From NCBI GenBank assembly GCA_029262315.1, contig JAJCZP010000186.1, forward strand, positions 1-35,647: 35,647 bases of DNA, written 5' to 3'. The position numbers were made by a program, and so were the translations under genes. Positions 3,145 through 31,677 of the stretch are shown here, in pieces (the stretch's first letter is position 1; each line of letters begins with the position of its first letter). Origin of the DNA: Deltaproteobacteria bacterium. Its GTDB lineage: Bacteria; Desulfobacterota; Binatia; UTPRO1. The notes beneath the pieces were generated by a model. It made no database searches and was not told the origin of the DNA. It was given only the letters and a program-made list of their open reading frames with translations.

Positions 3145-3211
3145 GAAACTTCGGCCCGGCAGAAATTGCCGGCTCGGCACGCCAGCCTCCATCGTTCCGG
3201 CCGTTTGCGAG

Positions 3212-3227
3212 CGGCATCGCCTTTGCT
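3212..3227 (+). promoter_or_regulatory. Predicted sigma-54 promoter of the unknown gene at 3254
   Basis: CGGCATCGCCTTTGCT has GG and GC separated by ten bases and matches the GGCA[T/C]-N6-TTGCT form of the four promoters in the flagellar locus. Transcription would start near 3238, just before the GGAGGAG ribosome binding site (3241-3247) of the downstream gene. It differs from consensus in the first base (C for T). Confidence 0.65.
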
Positions 3228-3253
3228 TCCTTCCACCACGGGAGGAGCCAACC

Positions 3254-4066
3254 GTGCGTATCGAACCCGAACAGCAGATCGCTGCGCGAGCGCGTCAGCC
3301 CGAGAGCAGCCGCAGCGTAGACAAAGGCTTTGCGTCGACGCTCACGGCCGCACGAGATGCCAGTACCGCCGGACCACCGACCGTCGATCCAAACCGCCCG
3401 GCGGCCGAGCAGTGGGGCCAGTGGGGTCAGGGAGCAACGCCGGCTGGCTTCGGCCCTGCCCCCGAGTCCGCGCAGTTCGCGCATCACCCGACCGGCCCAG
3501 ACGCCGGAGCCCATCCGCTGAACTCGCGAGGGAATACGGTCGCCAATCCCGCGTTCACGGTTCCAGGCTACACGACCCGCGGAACGCCGGTCCCGCCAGG
3601 CTTCTACAACCTCGCCTACTACAATCAGTACCTCGCGGAAGGCGGCACCCCGCTGGTCGGGTTTGACGCCCACGATCCCGCGAACGGCTCACTCACTGAT
3701 GTCTACGGGTCGTTTGGGGACGGACGCGAACGCGCAACGAGTTTCGTAAACGGCCTCATCGGCGCCGAGGGAGCAACACCCCAAGCGGCTGCGACCGTTG
3801 TGGCGCTGGAAACAGCGGCCGGTTCCGCGCGTGCGCCAATCGCGACAGAACAGGCCGCCGCATCCGTGGCCGCCGAGCCAACTCGAGCGCCGGCCCCGGC
3901 TGCGCCCGACCCTGCTCGCGAGCCGGTCGTGCCCTCGGCGAGCGCTGCGACATCCAACGATACGCCGACGGCGATCGATGCGAGGACACTGCTGACCGAT
4001 ACCGCTCAGCAGGCCGCGCGTCTGGCACTCCAAACACTCCTCGACGATCTCCTGAGCATCGCGTAG
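3254..4066 (+). CDS. Unknown cysteine-free protein under a flagellar-type sigma-54 promoter
   Basis: I do not recognise this 270-residue protein. The start is the GTG at 3254, six bases after GGAGGAG. It has no signal peptide, no membrane segment and no cysteine. Residues 1-95 are low in complexity with an EQWGQWGQG segment. Residues about 97-139 form an aromatic core (AFTVPGYTTRG, then PPGFYNLAYYNQYLAEGGTP). Residues 175-240 are an Ala/Pro-rich linker, and 241-270 form a predicted helical tail (ARTLLTDTAQQAARLALQTL). A sigma-54 promoter like those of the flagellar genes lies just upstream, so the inference is a flagellum-related product, perhaps an export substrate: the hook, hook-junction, FliK and FlgD proteins here are also cysteine-free. 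It is monocistronic and converges on the phosphatase gene. The coding call is firm, the function open. Confidence 0.8.
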   Translation: MRIEPEQQIAARARQPESSRSVDKGFASTLTAARDASTAGPPTVDPNRPAAEQWGQWGQGATPAGFGPAPESAQFAHHPTGPDAGAHPLNSRGNTVANPAFTVPGYTTRGTPVPPGFYNLAYYNQYLAEGGTPLVGFDAHDPANGSLTDVYGSFGDGRERATSFVNGLIGAEGATPQAAATVVALETAAGSARAPIATEQAAASVAAEPTRAPAPAAPDPAREPVVPSASAATSNDTPTAIDARTLLTDTAQQAARLALQTLLDDLLSIA

Positions 4067-5322: not shown

Positions 5323-6453
5323 CTACAATCGGGGAGACGTCACCCCGATTTCTCGCAGCGGCTCCAAAGCCCGCGCCGTTCGGGCCGTTTTCGCCAGCAG
5401 ATCGAGCCCCAACCGACCGGCCTCACGCTTGCGTTTCAGCTTCTCGAGCAACGTTGTACGGTTCAGGTGCAACAATCTCGCGGCCTCCTTCTTGTTCCCA
5501 CCGCTGATGTCGAGTGCTCGCGCGATCATGCGATCCTCGATGGATTCCATCTCGTTGTAGAAATCGATTCCCTGCGCACCAAAATCCCATGGCGGCGTCG
5601 CCCACCCGTGCAGCCCCATCCCGCTACCGCGCTCGCGCACCTTCGCGGGCAGATCCTCGGCACGAATGATTCCGTTCCCAGAGCCGAGTACGATCGTCTG
5701 CTCGAGGAGATTCTTGAGTTCGCGCACGTTCCCCGGCCACTGGTAAGCGGTGAGAAAGCCCATGGCCTCCTCACTGACCTCAACTCGAGGCAGCCCCTTA
5801 CTCAGGTGGAAGTCCTTGAGGAACGACTCGACCAGAAGCGGAACGTCCTCGCGACGATCACGCAGGGCCGGCATCTCGATCGGCACGACGCGCAGGCGAT
5901 AGTAAAGATCCTCGCGAAAACTCCGGTCCCGAACGGCCTCTTCCAGATCCTTGTTCGTCGCCGCGACGATCCTGGCGTCGACGGACTGCGTCTGCATGCC
6001 ACCGACAGACTCGAACATGCCGTTCTCGAGCACCCGCAGCAGCTTCACCTGCAGTTTCGGCGTCATGTCACCGATCTCGTCGAGAAAGATCGTGCCACGG
6101 TCGGCGAGCTTGAAGCGCCCCGTACGCGCACAGACGGCGCCCGTGAAGGCCCCACGCTCGTGCCCGAACATCTCGCTTTCCAAGAGCTCTTCAGGGATGG
6201 CTCCACAATGCACTGGCACGAGCCGCTCGGCGTGTCGCCGGCTCTGCGCATGGAGCGCCTGCGCTACCAGCTCTTTGCCGGTACCGCTCTCGCCGGTGAT
6301 CAGCACGGTGACCGAGGTCGGGGCGACGCGCCGGATGATCTCGTAGACCGCCTGCATACGCGCGTGCCGACCGATGAGCCCCGCGAAGCCGGTGGGCACC
6401 GGCTCGCTCGTGCTGTCACTCACCATCCCCTGCATCTCGTAGCCCTGGTCCAT
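5323..6453 (-). CDS. FleQ-like sigma-54-dependent flagellar activator without receiver domain
   Basis: A 376-residue AAA+ activator of sigma-54 RNA polymerase. Only about 24 residues precede the AAA+ module (FAGLIGRHARMQAVYEIIRR), so there is no receiver or other sensory domain. Walker A is GESGTGKE at 54-61, the sigma-54 contact loop is GAFTGA at 101-106, and Walker B is TIFLDE at 121-126. The C-terminal Fis-type helix-turn-helix reads GGNKKEAARLLHLNRTTLLE, close in style to FleQ/FlrA. A tail of about 30 residues follows. The ATG at 6453 is chosen because GGAGG lies five bases upstream; the longer frame to 6501 covers the gene's own promoter. Placed after fliW at the end of the flagellar locus, it is the obvious activator of the sigma-54 promoters found here. 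It could equally be named flrC-like. Confidence 0.92.
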   Translation of the reverse strand: MDQGYEMQGMVSDSTSEPVPTGFAGLIGRHARMQAVYEIIRRVAPTSVTVLITGESGTGKELVAQALHAQSRRHAERLVPVHCGAIPEELLESEMFGHERGAFTGAVCARTGRFKLADRGTIFLDEIGDMTPKLQVKLLRVLENGMFESVGGMQTQSVDARIVAATNKDLEEAVRDRSFREDLYYRLRVVPIEMPALRDRREDVPLLVESFLKDFHLSKGLPRVEVSEEAMGFLTAYQWPGNVRELKNLLEQTIVLGSGNGIIRAEDLPAKVRERGSGMGLHGWATPPWDFGAQGIDFYNEMESIEDRMIARALDISGGNKKEAARLLHLNRTTLLEKLKRKREAGRLGLDLLAKTARTARALEPLREIGVTSPRL

Positions 6454-6507
6454 GCTGCCTCCTCGCTCGCTTGATCGCCGACACCCGTGTCGGTGGATCA
6501 CTGAGAG

Positions 6508-6523
6508 AGCAAGGCAAGTGCCA
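6508..6523 (-). promoter_or_regulatory. Predicted sigma-54 promoter of the activator gene
   Basis: The minus strand reads TGGCACTTGCCTTGCT, with GG and GC exactly ten bases apart, the closest match to the -24/-12 consensus in the window. Transcription would start near 6498, giving a leader of about 45 bases before the ATG at 6453. It implies that the activator gene is itself sigma-54 dependent. Confidence 0.75.
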
Positions 6524-6675: not shown

Positions 6676-7179
6676 TCAGCGTTCCGTCTCGTGCTCCGCT
6701 GGCAGCTCCAGCACGGGGTAGCGGGAGTCCAGTTTCACGCCTTCGACGATGAGTTGCCGTGCGCGACGCGTACGCATGTCCACAACGACCGGAGCCATGA
6801 GGTTGACAGTCATCGCCCGTGGGTCCGACGGAATAGTGACGATGACGAAGAGAGCGACATCCCTCTCCTCCACCTCGAGGACCCGCGCGGCAAGCGCGAG
6901 CGGTGGCTCGTACCCGGCCACCAGCTCTGCTGGATTGGCGATCGCAAACCCTAGCTCGGGGTCATCGAGTGAGAGGAGCCACTTGAACGGTGACCCCGGA
7001 CGGTGTTCCAGAATCACGAAGCGTCGATCCATCGGAAAACCGATCGGGCCCTGCGGGAATTGGAGCACGCTGTCCGCAGACACTACGAACGTGCCGAATC
7101 GTTGCGACACGACGTCGATGGTCTCCTGGTCAGCCAGCGGGGCAACGATAGCCGTCAAGTCTTCAGCTGCGTCTTCCAT
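6676..7179 (-). CDS. fliW: Flagellar assembly factor FliW
   Basis: A 167-residue FliW protein. In bacteria where it has been studied, FliW binds flagellin and, when flagellin is exported, is freed to bind CsrA and stop it repressing flagellin translation. Family features include the segment SVLQFPQGPIGFPMDRRFVI, the SPFKWLLSLDDPELGFAI box and the C-terminal NLMAPVVVDMRTRRARQLIV stretch. The N-terminus carries about 20 residues before the usual family start (IDVVSQRFGTFVV). The ATG at 7179 overlaps the end of csrA by 17 bases; its GGAGG lies inside csrA, so the two are probably translationally coupled. A TTG at 7182 is an alternative start. The flagellin partner is not encoded in this window. 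Confidence 0.95.
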   Translation of the reverse strand: MEDAAEDLTAIVAPLADQETIDVVSQRFGTFVVSADSVLQFPQGPIGFPMDRRFVILEHRPGSPFKWLLSLDDPELGFAIANPAELVAGYEPPLALAARVLEVEERDVALFVIVTIPSDPRAMTVNLMAPVVVDMRTRRARQLIVEGVKLDSRYPVLELPAEHETER

Positions 7180-7411
7180 CAACGTACACCTCCCACGCGG
7201 CGGCCGCGTCGGTCAGACTTCCGGGGTCGGGAAGTCGAGCCTGAGCATTCTGCCCTTCCACGACTCGGAAAATCTCCTCGCGAAAGATGCGGATCTCCGC
7301 CGGTGCGGCAAACCCGAGCCGCACCTGCCCTCCTCGCACCTCCAGCACCTGCACACTCACATCATCACCGATGCGAATCCGCTCGCCGACCTTGCGTGTC
7401 AACACCAGCAT
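7163..7411 (-). CDS. csrA: Carbon storage/translational regulator CsrA
   Basis: An 82-residue CsrA, an RNA-binding dimer that blocks ribosome binding at GGA motifs of target messages. The N-terminus MLVLTRKVGERIRIGDDVSV matches the family, with RNA-binding residues L4 and R6 and the later IFREEIF segment that contains R44. A C-terminal tail of about 25 residues, longer than in E. coli (61 residues in total), ends in WEVYVDGRRS and overlaps fliW. The start is fixed by AGGAGG five bases before the ATG. The gene follows flgL by 24 bases and is therefore likely expressed with the late flagellar genes. The GGA in its own ribosome binding site could allow self-repression. Confidence 0.97.
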   Translation of the reverse strand: MLVLTRKVGERIRIGDDVSVQVLEVRGGQVRLGFAAPAEIRIFREEIFRVVEGQNAQARLPDPGSLTDAAAAWEVYVDGRRS

Positions 7412-7435
7412 GCCGCCCTCCTAGCGTCAGCTGCC

Positions 7436-8356
7436 TCATAGCCGAACGAAATCCAGAATGTTCGTGGCGAGCAGAGCTTGCCCCGCCGTCAGGGTCACCT
7501 CGAGCGCGTTCTGCAGCTGCGCCAGCTCGATCAACACCTGGGTCAGGTCCGCATCCTCGATCTCACCTTGCCGAGTCCGAGCGCCGACGATGGCGTCACG
7601 CATCTCCCCGTCACGGGTATTGAGACGCCCCAAACGACCGCCCACGCTCGCCCGCTCCTGGCGTGCCCCTTCGCTCGCGGCCTCGACATTGTCGATCGCC
7701 GCGATGATCCCGGTTCCGGGAGTGTCGACGTCGTTGTTCCGCAGGGCCGTCGTCAGCTGATGCACGGCGAGAATCGCGTCATCGAAGACCTGGTCGCCCG
7801 GAGTCGTCAACCGCACCAACTGGTCGGCCGCGGTCTGAATCGAGAACGGATCGGTCGGACCCGAGTACGTACTCCCGTTGACGTCCGGATCGTATGCGGG
7901 ATCGTCGAACCCGACGAACGGCGGAGTCCCCCGGGCGAGCCCGCCGAAGACATGCCGGCCGGCAACCGTCGTGTTACCCAGGCTGAGAAGTGCGCGTTCG
8001 ATCTGCTCGCTCTCCTCGGCCGCCGTCGCACGGCTCTCCGCGGTGTGTACGCCGCCCGAGAACGTCACCGCGAGTTCCTTGGCCCGTGTCAGTAGCGCAT
8101 GCACCTCGTCAAGCGCCGCATCCTCTGCACCGAGCACTGCCCGCCCGAACCCAACCCCGTCCAGCAACGACTCGAGCCTGCGGGTCTCGGCGCGAAACCC
8201 GTTCACGAGCGCGGTCCCGACTGGATCGTCGCTCGCAGCCTGCAATCGCTTCTGCGAGCTCACGACCGCCTGTGTGTGCACCAACTCGGATTGTAGCCGC
8301 GAGGTGTTCGCGCTGAGGACACGCACGAGCGCGCTCTGTGTCACGCGTTGAATCAT
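7436..8356 (-). CDS. flgL: Flagellar hook-filament junction protein FlgL (HAP3)
   Basis: A 306-residue FlgL, the second of two junction proteins between hook and filament, exported by the flagellar type III system. The N-terminus MIQRVTQSALVRVLSANTS and following helices (LQSELVHTQAVVSSQKRLQA) form the flagellin-like D0/D1 region with the SDDP turn. The C-terminal helix (LTQVLIELAQLQNALEVTL ending in NILDFVRL) completes it. The central part is short and Gly/Asp-rich. The ATG at 8356 has AGG seven bases upstream and follows the flgK stop by four bases; the long in-frame extension to 8662 is antisense-like sequence inside flgK. No cysteine, as usual for exported axial proteins. It lies in the flgM-flgN-flgK-flgL-csrA-fliW unit. 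Confidence 0.96.
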   Translation of the reverse strand: MIQRVTQSALVRVLSANTSRLQSELVHTQAVVSSQKRLQAASDDPVGTALVNGFRAETRRLESLLDGVGFGRAVLGAEDAALDEVHALLTRAKELAVTFSGGVHTAESRATAAEESEQIERALLSLGNTTVAGRHVFGGLARGTPPFVGFDDPAYDPDVNGSTYSGPTDPFSIQTAADQLVRLTTPGDQVFDDAILAVHQLTTALRNNDVDTPGTGIIAAIDNVEAASEGARQERASVGGRLGRLNTRDGEMRDAIVGARTRQGEIEDADLTQVLIELAQLQNALEVTLTAGQALLATNILDFVRL

Positions 8357-10591: not shown

Positions 10592-11545
10592 TCAGCCGAT
10601 TCGCCCCTCGCTCCGCAGCTCAGGAATAAGTCCTGTTGGATCAATAGCTTGGCCGCCCTTGCGTACTGAGAAGTGCAGATGAGGTCCGGTGCTGCGACCG
10701 GTCGAACCCACGGTCGCAATCACATCTCCGGCGACAACGTTCTGACCGACGCCCACCAGAGTCCGATCGGCATGGGCATAGCTGGTCAACAACCCGTCAG
10801 GATGGCGCACCTCGACAACGTTCCCCGCCGAGCCGCGCCGGCCACTGAACACGACCTGCCCATCCGCAGCCACACGAATCGGCGTACCCCGCGGTGCGCC
10901 GAGATCGACACCGGCGTGAAAGCGATCGTGGCCCGTCAGCGGATCCACGCGCATGCCGAAGCCAGAAGTGATCCGCGGTTCGTCGAGCGGCGGACGTGGC
11001 GTCAGCGCCGCACCGACCCGGCCCGCGTTCGGCTGCACCGCCACCTCGGGTACACCAACGGGAGTCGCGGCCCGTGGGTCACTCGTCACCACGGGGGTGA
11101 CCATCACGTGACTTGCCACCGGGGTAGCCATCACGGGGTTGGTCGCGGACGACACCACCCCTGCTGGCTTGGCGCTCACATCGACACCTGCGGTTTGTAG
11201 ATCGGACACCGGGGCCCCTACGTCGGGAGATTTCACACTGCGTGCGCGGGCGAGGAGCTGCCCCTCGATCTGCTTCGCGAAACCGAGACTACCGTCCGCG
11301 ACGAGCGCGCGGGCGAGTTCGTGATCGAACGCGCCGTCGAGCGTCCGCCGTGAAGCCGAGGACTGCAACATCTCCGACTCGGGCACCGTGCGTCGCATGG
11401 CGGTAATGAGCTGCGTGACCAGAAGCGCCTCGAGATCGCGCGCCACGTCGTGGGCCTGTTTCGCGTCCGGCACGTCGGTCGTCCGCGGAGTCGCTCCCGC
11501 GCCAGGAAACGACAGCATCACGGGCGAGATCGGTGAGATCGTCAC
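10592..11545 (-). CDS. flgJ: FlgJ: rod-binding domain fused to M23 (LytM) peptidase domain
   Basis: A 317-residue protein for building the rod through the cell wall. Residues about 28-100 are the FlgJ N-terminal rod-cap domain (ARDLEALLVTQLITAMRRTV, later RTLDGAFDHELARALV). Residues about 105-185 are a Val/Pro/Ala linker. Residues about 190-305 are an M23 metallopeptidase domain: SGFGMRVDPLTG, zinc ligands H210 and D214 in HAGVDLG, H258 in YAHAD, and the HLHF pair H289/H291. Salmonella FlgJ carries a glucosaminidase domain there instead, so the bond cut would be in the peptide cross-links and not the glycan. No signal peptide, consistent with export through the flagellum. No cysteine. The ATG overlaps the flgI stop (ATGA). 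Confidence 0.93.
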   Translation of the reverse strand: MTISPISPVMLSFPGAGATPRTTDVPDAKQAHDVARDLEALLVTQLITAMRRTVPESEMLQSSASRRTLDGAFDHELARALVADGSLGFAKQIEGQLLARARSVKSPDVGAPVSDLQTAGVDVSAKPAGVVSSATNPVMATPVASHVMVTPVVTSDPRAATPVGVPEVAVQPNAGRVGAALTPRPPLDEPRITSGFGMRVDPLTGHDRFHAGVDLGAPRGTPIRVAADGQVVFSGRRGSAGNVVEVRHPDGLLTSYAHADRTLVGVGQNVVAGDVIATVGSTGRSTGPHLHFSVRKGGQAIDPTGLIPELRSEGRIG

Positions 11546-15892: not shown

Positions 15893-15908
15893 AGCAACGC
15901 CCATGCCA
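15893..15908 (-). promoter_or_regulatory. Predicted sigma-54 promoter of the flgF rod/ring operon
   Basis: The minus strand reads TGGCATGGGCGTTGCT, with GG and GC ten bases apart, one base from the consensus in the -24 box. Transcription would start near 15883, about 30 bases before the flgF ATG at 15853. It lies in the gap after the small membrane-protein gene. Confidence 0.75.
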
Positions 15909-15961
15909 GTACTTGGGCGTGTTTTGCCCCCGTTGGAGGCCGCCCGAGATCGATCTGCGCT

Positions 15962-16411
15962 TCAGGCGGCAGTTTTTGCCGCGACCTTTTTGCCGCGTCG
16001 GCCTCCCTGGAGGCCGACGAGCAATCGCACCTCGGCAACCGGCATGTCGACGCGCCGCGCGATCTCTTCGATCGGAGTCGCACGCGCGGCCAGATCGTTG
16101 ATCTGCCGTCGCAACGGTCCCGTCCCACTTTCCGCGGGCCGCGACGCCTGCACAGGCTGCTCGGCCGGCTCCATCCGCAGCTGACCGCGGAGCTCCTCGA
16201 GACGTCCCGCGAGCTGCGCATCGAGCACGCGCGCTTGCTCTGCGGCCTCGGCAACAAGCGCCTGGAGACCCTGCACCGCCTGCTTGAGACGCAGCTCGCG
16301 TTCCTCCCAGGCCGCGCTTGGATCACGCCCGAAGCGCCAGAGCGCCATGCCGAGCACGCCAATCACCACCGCGTCCAGGATCAACATGATCATACTGCCG
16401 AAGTCACCCAT
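15962..16411 (-). CDS. Small flagellar-locus membrane protein with HTH-like C-terminus (DUF2802/DUF6115-like)
   Basis: A 149-residue protein I cannot name. One N-terminal membrane segment (MIMLILDAVVIGVLGMALW, residues 7-25) is followed by a coiled coil (about 35-85), a short Glu/Pro/Ser-rich linker, and a C-terminal segment TPIEEIARRVDMPVAEVRLL (from residue 112) that looks like a small helix-turn-helix. A basic tail (GRRGKKVAAKTAA) ends it. Similar architectures (DUF2802, DUF6115) occur next to flagellar and chemotaxis genes in other bacteria; their role is unclear. The gene follows fliA by three bases and is the last of the fliL-to-fliA unit. The family assignment is from memory of architecture, not a search. 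Confidence 0.75.
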   Translation of the reverse strand: MGDFGSMIMLILDAVVIGVLGMALWRFGRDPSAAWEERELRLKQAVQGLQALVAEAAEQARVLDAQLAGRLEELRGQLRMEPAEQPVQASRPAESGTGPLRRQINDLAARATPIEEIARRVDMPVAEVRLLVGLQGGRRGKKVAAKTAA

Positions 16412-30986: not shown

Positions 30987-31002
30987 AGCAAGCGGGATGC
31001 CA
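30987..31002 (-). promoter_or_regulatory. Predicted sigma-54 promoter of the fliK-flgD-flgE hook operon
   Basis: The minus strand reads TGGCATCCCGCTTGCT, GG and GC ten bases apart, very similar to the fliL and flgF sites. It lies in the 108-base gap between the motE-like gene and fliK. Predicted start of transcription is near 30976, just four bases from the fliK ATG. Confidence 0.75.
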
Positions 31003-31080
31003 TCGGCGTCAGCCAACGCCCGTAAGCATCAGACGACTCGAGCACTCGGCAGAATCAGCCGCGCCCGGCAAGAACTGCCG

Positions 31081-31677
31081 CTACCGGCGGAGCGCGATCG
31101 CTTGCGTCAACACGATTGCGCGCGAGCGACTCATGAGGGGCAGAATCTCGCCGATCTGCTTCTCTTTCATGCGTCGGAAGATCGTGAGGATCGTGCGATC
31201 GTCGAGCTGATCGAGAATCGGCGCCGCATCGGCCGGCTTCATGGCGGCGTAGATCTTCGCGAGCGACTGCGCCGCCTCGGCGCCCGACGTCCGCCGCGTC
31301 TCCGCCTCACCGGAGAGCCGCTTTTCGATCTCCTCGAGGGTCGCGATCTTGGTCGTCACGTCCTGCTCCAGAACCTTCAAGCGCGCCGCACGCTGCTCGA
31401 GTTCCTGCTCCCGTGCATCCAACTCCTGCTGCCGTTGTTCGAGGTCGCTCAACAAGTCCAGGACCGGACGCTTCTGCGCCATCGGAGCGACCGGCTTCGG
31501 CTTGTCGCTAGCCATGGCCCTGCTCGCCCCCGAGGTGTCAGCCGCCGAGACTTCGCGAGCGGTCAGGAGGCCGCCAGTCCACACGCCCGCCGTCCCCACC
31601 TTCACGATCAACGCGACGATCAGAATCACCCGCAACCACGCTCGCCCCACCCCTACCGGCTTCTCGCTCATTTTCAT
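31081..31677 (-). CDS. MotE-like flagellar protein with MgtE-N-type C-terminus
   Basis: A 198-residue protein with one N-terminal membrane segment (RVILIVALIVKVGTAGVWTG, residues 16-35), a long coiled coil (about 72-130, DLLSDLEQRQQELDAREQEL onward) and a C-terminal MgtE-intracellular-N-like domain (KIYAAMKPADAAPILDQLDD then RTILTIFRRMKEKQIGEILP). The same architecture is found in MotE of Sinorhizobium, a periplasmic chaperone of MotC, and in many unnamed proteins placed after fliJ. The membrane segment could also be an uncleaved signal, leaving the rest periplasmic. The ATG at 31677 overlaps the fliJ stop (ATGA) and has GGAGG six bases upstream. It closes the fliF-fliJ unit. Confidence 0.88.
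   Translation of the reverse strand: MKMSEKPVGVGRAWLRVILIVALIVKVGTAGVWTGGLLTAREVSAADTSGASRAMASDKPKPVAPMAQKRPVLDLLSDLEQRQQELDAREQELEQRAARLKVLEQDVTTKIATLEEIEKRLSGEAETRRTSGAEAAQSLAKIYAAMKPADAAPILDQLDDRTILTIFRRMKEKQIGEILPLMSRSRAIVLTQAIALRR

Follow-up and report, generated by a model that had tools for sequence, protein, structure and literature searches.

The ORFX gene and the window

The window, the whole stretch of 35,647 nucleotides that was analysed (contig JAJCZP010000186.1 of assembly GCA_029262315.1, from a Deltaproteobacteria bacterium), contains an orphan gene, here called ORFX, beside a flagellar gene cluster. ORFX extends from 3254 to 4066 on the forward strand, with the stop codon ending at 4066, and encodes 270 amino acids from a GTG start. 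A ribosome binding site, GGGAGGAG, was found by sequence at 3240-3247 on the same strand, leaving 8 nt between GGAGG and the GTG, in line with the preliminary description, in which the site was called well placed. That description also denied the product a signal peptide, and a hydrophobic N-terminal stretch was indeed absent on inspection by eye. The gene was present as a single copy in its own genome (G000, 5.9 Mb in 298 contigs). The reading frame was judged to be coding because the product has 45% and 47% amino acid identity to its counterparts in two relatives (G001 and G003), with an excess of differences at codon position 3 (158 against 107 and 108 at positions 1 and 2 in one comparison, 175 against 103 and 98 in the other). 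The codon-position G+C of ORFX (0.72/0.62/0.71) was closer to that of fliK (0.78/0.62/0.71) than to that of any of the other ten genes compared.

The earlier view that ORFX belongs to no recognised family was borne out by searches of Pfam, NCBIfam, PHROGs and PDB sequences. No Pfam match was obtained at E<=0.001 or even at E<=1, and none to PHROGs or NCBIfam at E<=1. PDB sequence searches, performed with ORFX alone or with profiles, gave chance-level matches only (best E 0.34). When all six members described below were searched against Pfam at E<=1, a single unrelated match appeared in one member (E 0.16). At this threshold the Flg_hook domain (PF02120) was absent from all six, the FlgM domain (PF04316) was not matched, and no domain of the axial families (rod, hook, hook-associated, flagellin, FliD, FliE) was found. 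No description of the protein was met in a literature search that was not thorough.

AlphaFold models of ORFX were poor, with a mean pLDDT of 45.9 from six sequences and 46.7 from three; 199 of the 270 residues in the window protein scored below 50. A C-terminal helix was predicted in both models (243-269; 179-189). In the window protein it spans residues 243-269 (3980-4060, forward strand) and is the best-scored part, the mean pLDDT being 55 for residues 241-250, 85 for 251-260 and 88 for 261-270, which agrees with the helical tail described earlier. Low pLDDT fits disorder, and it fits a shallow alignment too; ORFX is most likely a largely disordered protein.

The absence of cysteine from the window protein had been noted as a likeness to the axial proteins, in favour of an export substrate or assembly accessory. 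The six members contain 0, 1, 0, 2, 1 and 0 cysteines, so that three of them have at least one, and the window has nine non-axial proteins that likewise lack it (those of fliW, csrA, flgI, flgA, fliA, fliR, fliQ and fliL, and the protein encoded at 31084-31677). The lack of cysteine should not be counted as evidence.

Judged by Pfam domains and gene position, the window encodes FlgA, FlgD to FlgN, FliA, FliG to FliI and FliK to FliR, together with FliW, CsrA, FlhA, FlhB and FlhF- and FlhG-like proteins. FlgN scored just below the cut-off, and the FliJ candidate gave no match. FlgB- and FlgC-like proteins, FliE and FliF were found in the relative G001. FliD is encoded on another contig of the window's own genome (G000:C245:12340-13032), and some flagellar genes of G000 therefore lie outside the window. 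Since the known flagellar parts are present as separate genes, ORFX looks like an addition and not like one of these parts in disguise.

Three further reading frames of the window were recorded. The FlgJ-like protein at 10595-11545 has a rod-binding domain, scoring just at the Pfam cut-off, joined to Peptidase_M23. A protein of 198 amino acids encoded at 31084-31677, between fliK and the fliI region, is kept in the relatives and gave a weak MgtE_N match below the cut-off; it is possibly a flagellar chaperone or a MotE-like protein. An open reading frame at 6749-7438 on the forward strand, first taken as a gene (relatives at about 52%), was rejected: it has no Pfam match, and it overlaps two genes of the opposite strand, csrA and fliW. 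Outside the taxonomic family, flagellar proteins close to those of the window were seen in G035 of family f6 (locus L041; FlgG 77%, FlgK 50%), but no FlhA was seen in its congener G029; this suggests loss or transfer of the flagellar cluster.

The promoter and the upstream box

A sigma-54 (-24/-12) promoter, CGGCATCGCCTTTGCT, was predicted by sequence match at 3212-3227 on the forward strand. A site of this kind directly precedes ORFX in all six members, and for this reason the promoter proposed in the preliminary description is regarded as more than a chance match. The combination of promoter, ribosome binding site and MRI-type start was matched once in each family genome, each time at ORFX; the control was matched twice in 148 genomes, and the pattern is therefore not specific by itself.

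Upstream of the promoter, sequence comparison revealed a box, CGGCAGAAATTGCCG, at 3157-3171 (forward strand). It is an inverted repeat, CGGCA-N5-TGCCG, and a probable site for a sigma-54 activator. The box at ORFX is exact in the window, L019 and L022, has one mismatch in L021 and two in L018 and L020. The gap between box and promoter is 40 nt in the window, L018, L019 and L020, 42 nt in L021 and 50 nt in L022. The same arrangement of box and sigma-54 promoter was found on the reverse strand of the window at flgF (15893-15981, box at 15967-15981) and at fliK (30987-31080, box at 31066-31080). Before the sigma-54 promoters of fliL and of the activator gene in the window, no box was present within two mismatches.

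In the six family genomes the exact box with a promoter occurs at ten places, and the reversed control gave none. Three places are at ORFX (G000, G003, G004), three at flgF (G000, G004, G005), three at fliK (G000, G002, G004) and one before a histidine kinase gene, in G000 only; G001 has no exact composite site. Less perfect boxes were seen at other copies. One-mismatch boxes precede fliK in G005 and G003, and flgF of G002 has a one-mismatch box at a gap of 40 and an exact box at a gap of 23. Upstream of flgF there is a box-like repeat at about 100 nt in G003, and in G001 only G+C-rich matches with two mismatches were found. In genus g3 a gap of 40 nt is common to ORFX and flgF. Two-mismatch matches also arise in coding DNA by chance, and so count for little by themselves. 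Taken without a promoter, the box is not enriched in the genome (37 sites against 51 in the reversed control). At four more sites whose centres are alike (L074-L077), neither strand carries a strict sigma-54-like site within 100 nt.

Outside the family the composite was matched seven times in 142 genomes (about 0.05 per genome), the control giving eight matches in all 148. One of the seven lies, as judged by eye and with the distance taken from base 1 of the sigma-54 site, 34 nt before an FlgF-like start in G031, a genome of family f8 (G031:C126:61817-61890, locus L037). The composite here precedes an FlgF-like protein in another family of the class, where flgF may have had the box for a long time.

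The composite before the histidine kinase gene (G000:C99:9953-10038, equal to L084:1454-1539) precedes a protein with HisKA and HATPase_c domains and a hydrophobic N-terminal half. This kinase is possibly a further member of the regulon; the centre of its box is G+C-rich, and the box may also be a chance match.

A candidate regulator is encoded at 5323-6501 on the reverse strand. According to Pfam it is a sigma-54 activator with an AAA+ domain and a Fis-type HTH, no receiver domain being matched, and a sigma-54-like site is present upstream of its gene at 6523. In G001, genes for a histidine kinase and a receiver-bearing sigma-54 activator (L078:8362-10637) are located directly before genes of the flgB, flgC, fliE and fliF type. 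This pair resembles the two-component systems FlgS/FlgR or FleS/FleR (names as in PMC3930126, in part). The two genomes together suggest two activators, one receiver-bearing (G001) and one receiver-less (window). An open reading frame of 870 amino acids without Pfam match (L078:5753-8365) adjoins the two-component genes of G001; it contains a sigma-54-like site at 5919, and its true start may lie later.

The promoter architecture resembles known hierarchies. In Caulobacter the NtrC-type activator FlbD binds the ftr element in promoters of middle and late genes (PMC3930126 and PMC3096577, each in part); the likeness to the ORFX promoter is one of arrangement. In Helicobacter and Campylobacter the RpoN-dependent middle genes include those for the proximal rod, hook and hook-associated proteins, FliK, a minor flagellin and glycosylation enzymes (PMC3930126, in part).

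The flagellar link had previously been drawn from the promoter. The preliminary interpretation is partly supported: the link is stronger than could be seen from the window, through conserved position and a conserved promoter in six of six genomes and a box common to flgF and fliK, and the cysteine argument fails. By these sequence features, ORFX very probably belongs to the flagellar sigma-54 regulon of the rod-hook stage.

Relatives, position and the N-terminus

ORFX is carried by all six members of the taxonomic family, in the same position next to the cluster of flagellar genes; these are G000 (the window's own genome), G001, G003 and the three genomes of genus g3 (G002, G004 and G005). Searching 58 related genomes at the protein level returned the own copy, the two clear relatives in G001 and G003 (46% identity), and two weak matches. 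The weak matches were rejected as relatives, that in G006 being antisense to a long hydrophobic open reading frame and that in G045 running through three stops. A pattern-based scan of genome contigs, which reaches close relatives only, gave the same two, in stretches that match G001 and G003 exactly. The copy in L006 could alternatively start one ATG earlier. The versions of g3 were missed by the protein search and recovered through synteny. The gene at this place in g3 encodes 178-190 amino acids and has the same start and a promoter of the same kind.

The genes for lon, an HAD phosphatase, the sigma-54 activator, flgL, flgK and further flagellar proteins follow the same order in all six genomes. 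Where this was tested, lon and ORFX are separated by a gene of the glycogen/starch-synthase type in both g2 members and in L018 of g3, and not in the window. Two genes separate ORFX from the HAD gene in g3, one of the oxidoreductase type, as tested in L018, and one of the LysR type, as tested in L019. ORFX stays while its non-flagellar neighbours change.

Identity between the two versions of ORFX is only 21-23%. Over the first 42 columns the observed alignment was reached by none of 1500 column shuffles, and again by none of 1500 when MRI was held fixed. The C-terminal 26 columns were marginal, 71 of 1500 shuffles reaching the observed value. Comparison of the two versions by hhalign covered the first 38 columns only (P 0.0039, probability 8.5%). 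Position, promoter and N-terminus together make it likely that the two versions are orthologous, and the middle part may have been replaced between them.

A profile built from the six rows found all six members among 148 genomes of the class. Weak partial matches (E 0.02-0.04) were given by G082, G113, G020 and another contig of G002, and the class genomes outside the family, 142 in number and including at least 11 with FlhA, gave no convincing match. Against 395 genomes drawn from the phylum, the profile returned the own genome only, the other five members evidently not having been drawn. The profile searches scored a limited number of candidates per genome. The promoter-RBS-MRI search gave 13 matches in the 142 genomes outside the family; all were read, and none had a GFxxxL start. 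Nothing resembling ORFX was seen among the genes close behind sigma-54-like sites in 14 stretches, which cover the flagellar regions of 8 of the 11 FlhA-bearing outside genomes; one product of these genes (L045) starts with MRI, and its beginning is like that of a signal peptide.

Neither carriers without flagellar genes nor a match to a non-flagellar family came to light: FlhA is present in all six carriers, and no family was matched. Co-occurrence with flagella is little evidence alone, the six carriers being from one family. FlhA was found in 17 genomes of the 58-genome sample, 11 of them outside the family. None of these 11 has a detectable ORFX, and the protein is therefore not generally needed for a flagellum.

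The N-terminal 42 residues (3254-3379, forward strand), with an MRI start and GFASTL at residues 25-30, are a candidate early export signal according to the alignment of the versions and the model. M1, R2, I3, R14, G25, F26, A27 and L30 are invariant, and GFAxxL is kept in all six members. In both models a short helix begins at GFAxxL (26-36; 28-38), with low confidence (pLDDT about 50 in the window protein). The motif F-x-x-x-hydrophobic, recognised by the export gate, is thus present in the N-terminal region, and is a weak motif alone. FxxxL is a common motif and proves nothing on its own.

Early substrates use a hydrophobic N-terminus and the gate motif, such as 36-FLTLL-40 of FlgD (PMC8983047, in part); FLTLL is also found in the FlgD of the window. 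ORFX resembles FlgD and other early rod-hook substrates in its small hydrophobic start and its F-x-x-x-hydrophobic motif (same source), and differs from them in that the motif is closer to the start, no domain is common and export is putative. The motif F of ORFX is residue 26 in g1 and g2 and residue 28 in g3, which leaves about 20 residues (22 in g3) after positions 2-5. The motif is of the reported type and has the minimum spacing, but it is nearer to the start than reported and falls outside the 30-residue rule of early substrates. ORFX is therefore not classed as an early export substrate, though it may work like one.

A similar pattern was seen in FliK, an early substrate. In the first 120 residues of FliK from five members, that of G001 being left out, the invariant columns are M1, A27, F42, L46, S103 and G111, so that F42 and L46 are among only six. 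The N-terminal profiles of ORFX and FliK were not significantly alike (P 0.75). Both genes have the composite promoter and similar codon-position composition, and both proteins have a low-complexity body, a F-x-x-x-L kept in a variable N-terminus and, in the window, no cysteine. Unlike ORFX, FliK has the Flg_hook domain (PF02120) and is twice as long, and the true fliK is separately present in the window. FlgM is a short, disordered, exported protein with a helical C-terminus. ORFX is like it in disorder and C-terminal helix, but shows no match to PF04316, and FlgM is separately encoded in the window.

Possible roles of ORFX

Judged from the N-terminus, the chance that ORFX is exported by the flagellar apparatus appears even or slightly better. 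We consider it an evenly balanced proposition that ORFX is a rod-hook stage protein particular to this lineage, exported early and acting as an assembly accessory. It would be made together with the distal rod and hook-length proteins. The N-terminal signal, a small hydrophobic MRI start followed by the gate-recognition motif GFAxxL, would offer it to the export gate. It could then pass out through the rod or hook as these grow, travelling without a chaperone as a mostly disordered chain that ends in a helix, and would serve as an accessory and not as a major building block. A wider proposal, which we hold to be tentative and somewhat doubtful, is that ORFX founds a new class of early export substrate. 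Such a disordered accessory might be a second ruler, a plug or a factor in gate timing, and would have joined the rod-hook stage in a single lineage; the export tag and the C-terminal helix would be its most fixed parts.

Cytoplasmic proteins can belong to sigma-54 flagellar regulons, and co-regulation is therefore no proof of export. Disordered proteins with a C-terminal helix can serve as anti-factors, as in the FlgM type. ORFX could accordingly be a cytoplasmic regulator or checkpoint factor (FliX-like, or an anti-factor), made together with the rod-hook proteins and never exported. Co-regulation with flgF and fliK would fit equally well, and the control of the sigma-54 activator FlbD by FliX in Caulobacter offers a precedent (PMC3096577, in part). 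We nevertheless regard this as unlikely: the six members gave no Pfam match at E<=1 except the one at E 0.16, FlgM is present as a separate gene, and the retained GFAxxL would be left without obvious purpose.

Proteins have been reported to be secreted through the flagellar export apparatus in Campylobacter (PMC2764114, in part). The export-like N-terminus of ORFX, its fast divergence (21-23% identity between versions) and its restriction to one family would suit a non-structural protein secreted by this route for a purpose outside motility. Such a role appears improbable, as the promoter class is common to rod and ruler genes and nothing points to an outside target. A sigma-54 regulon protein without any flagellar role, its neighbourhood and box being due to chance or to a wider regulon, is very improbable: the lack of enrichment of the box alone (37 against 51), the composite site before a histidine kinase outside the cluster and the direct neighbours (lon, HAD, glycogen/starch synthase type, oxidoreductase, LysR) would fit it, but nine of the ten box and promoter places belong to the flagellar cluster or ORFX, and the position is kept in all six genomes despite the oxidoreductase-type and LysR-type genes before the cluster in g3.

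Roughly half of all flagellar proteins are regarded as specific to particular lineages (PMC12403147, in part). Disordered flagellar proteins diverge too fast for sequence searches, and synteny and promoter architecture here recovered three relatives that a protein search had missed. ORFX is a concrete and testable candidate for an extra component of the rod-hook stage. Should it be exported, it would show that an early export signal can be one of the few parts of a protein to be conserved.
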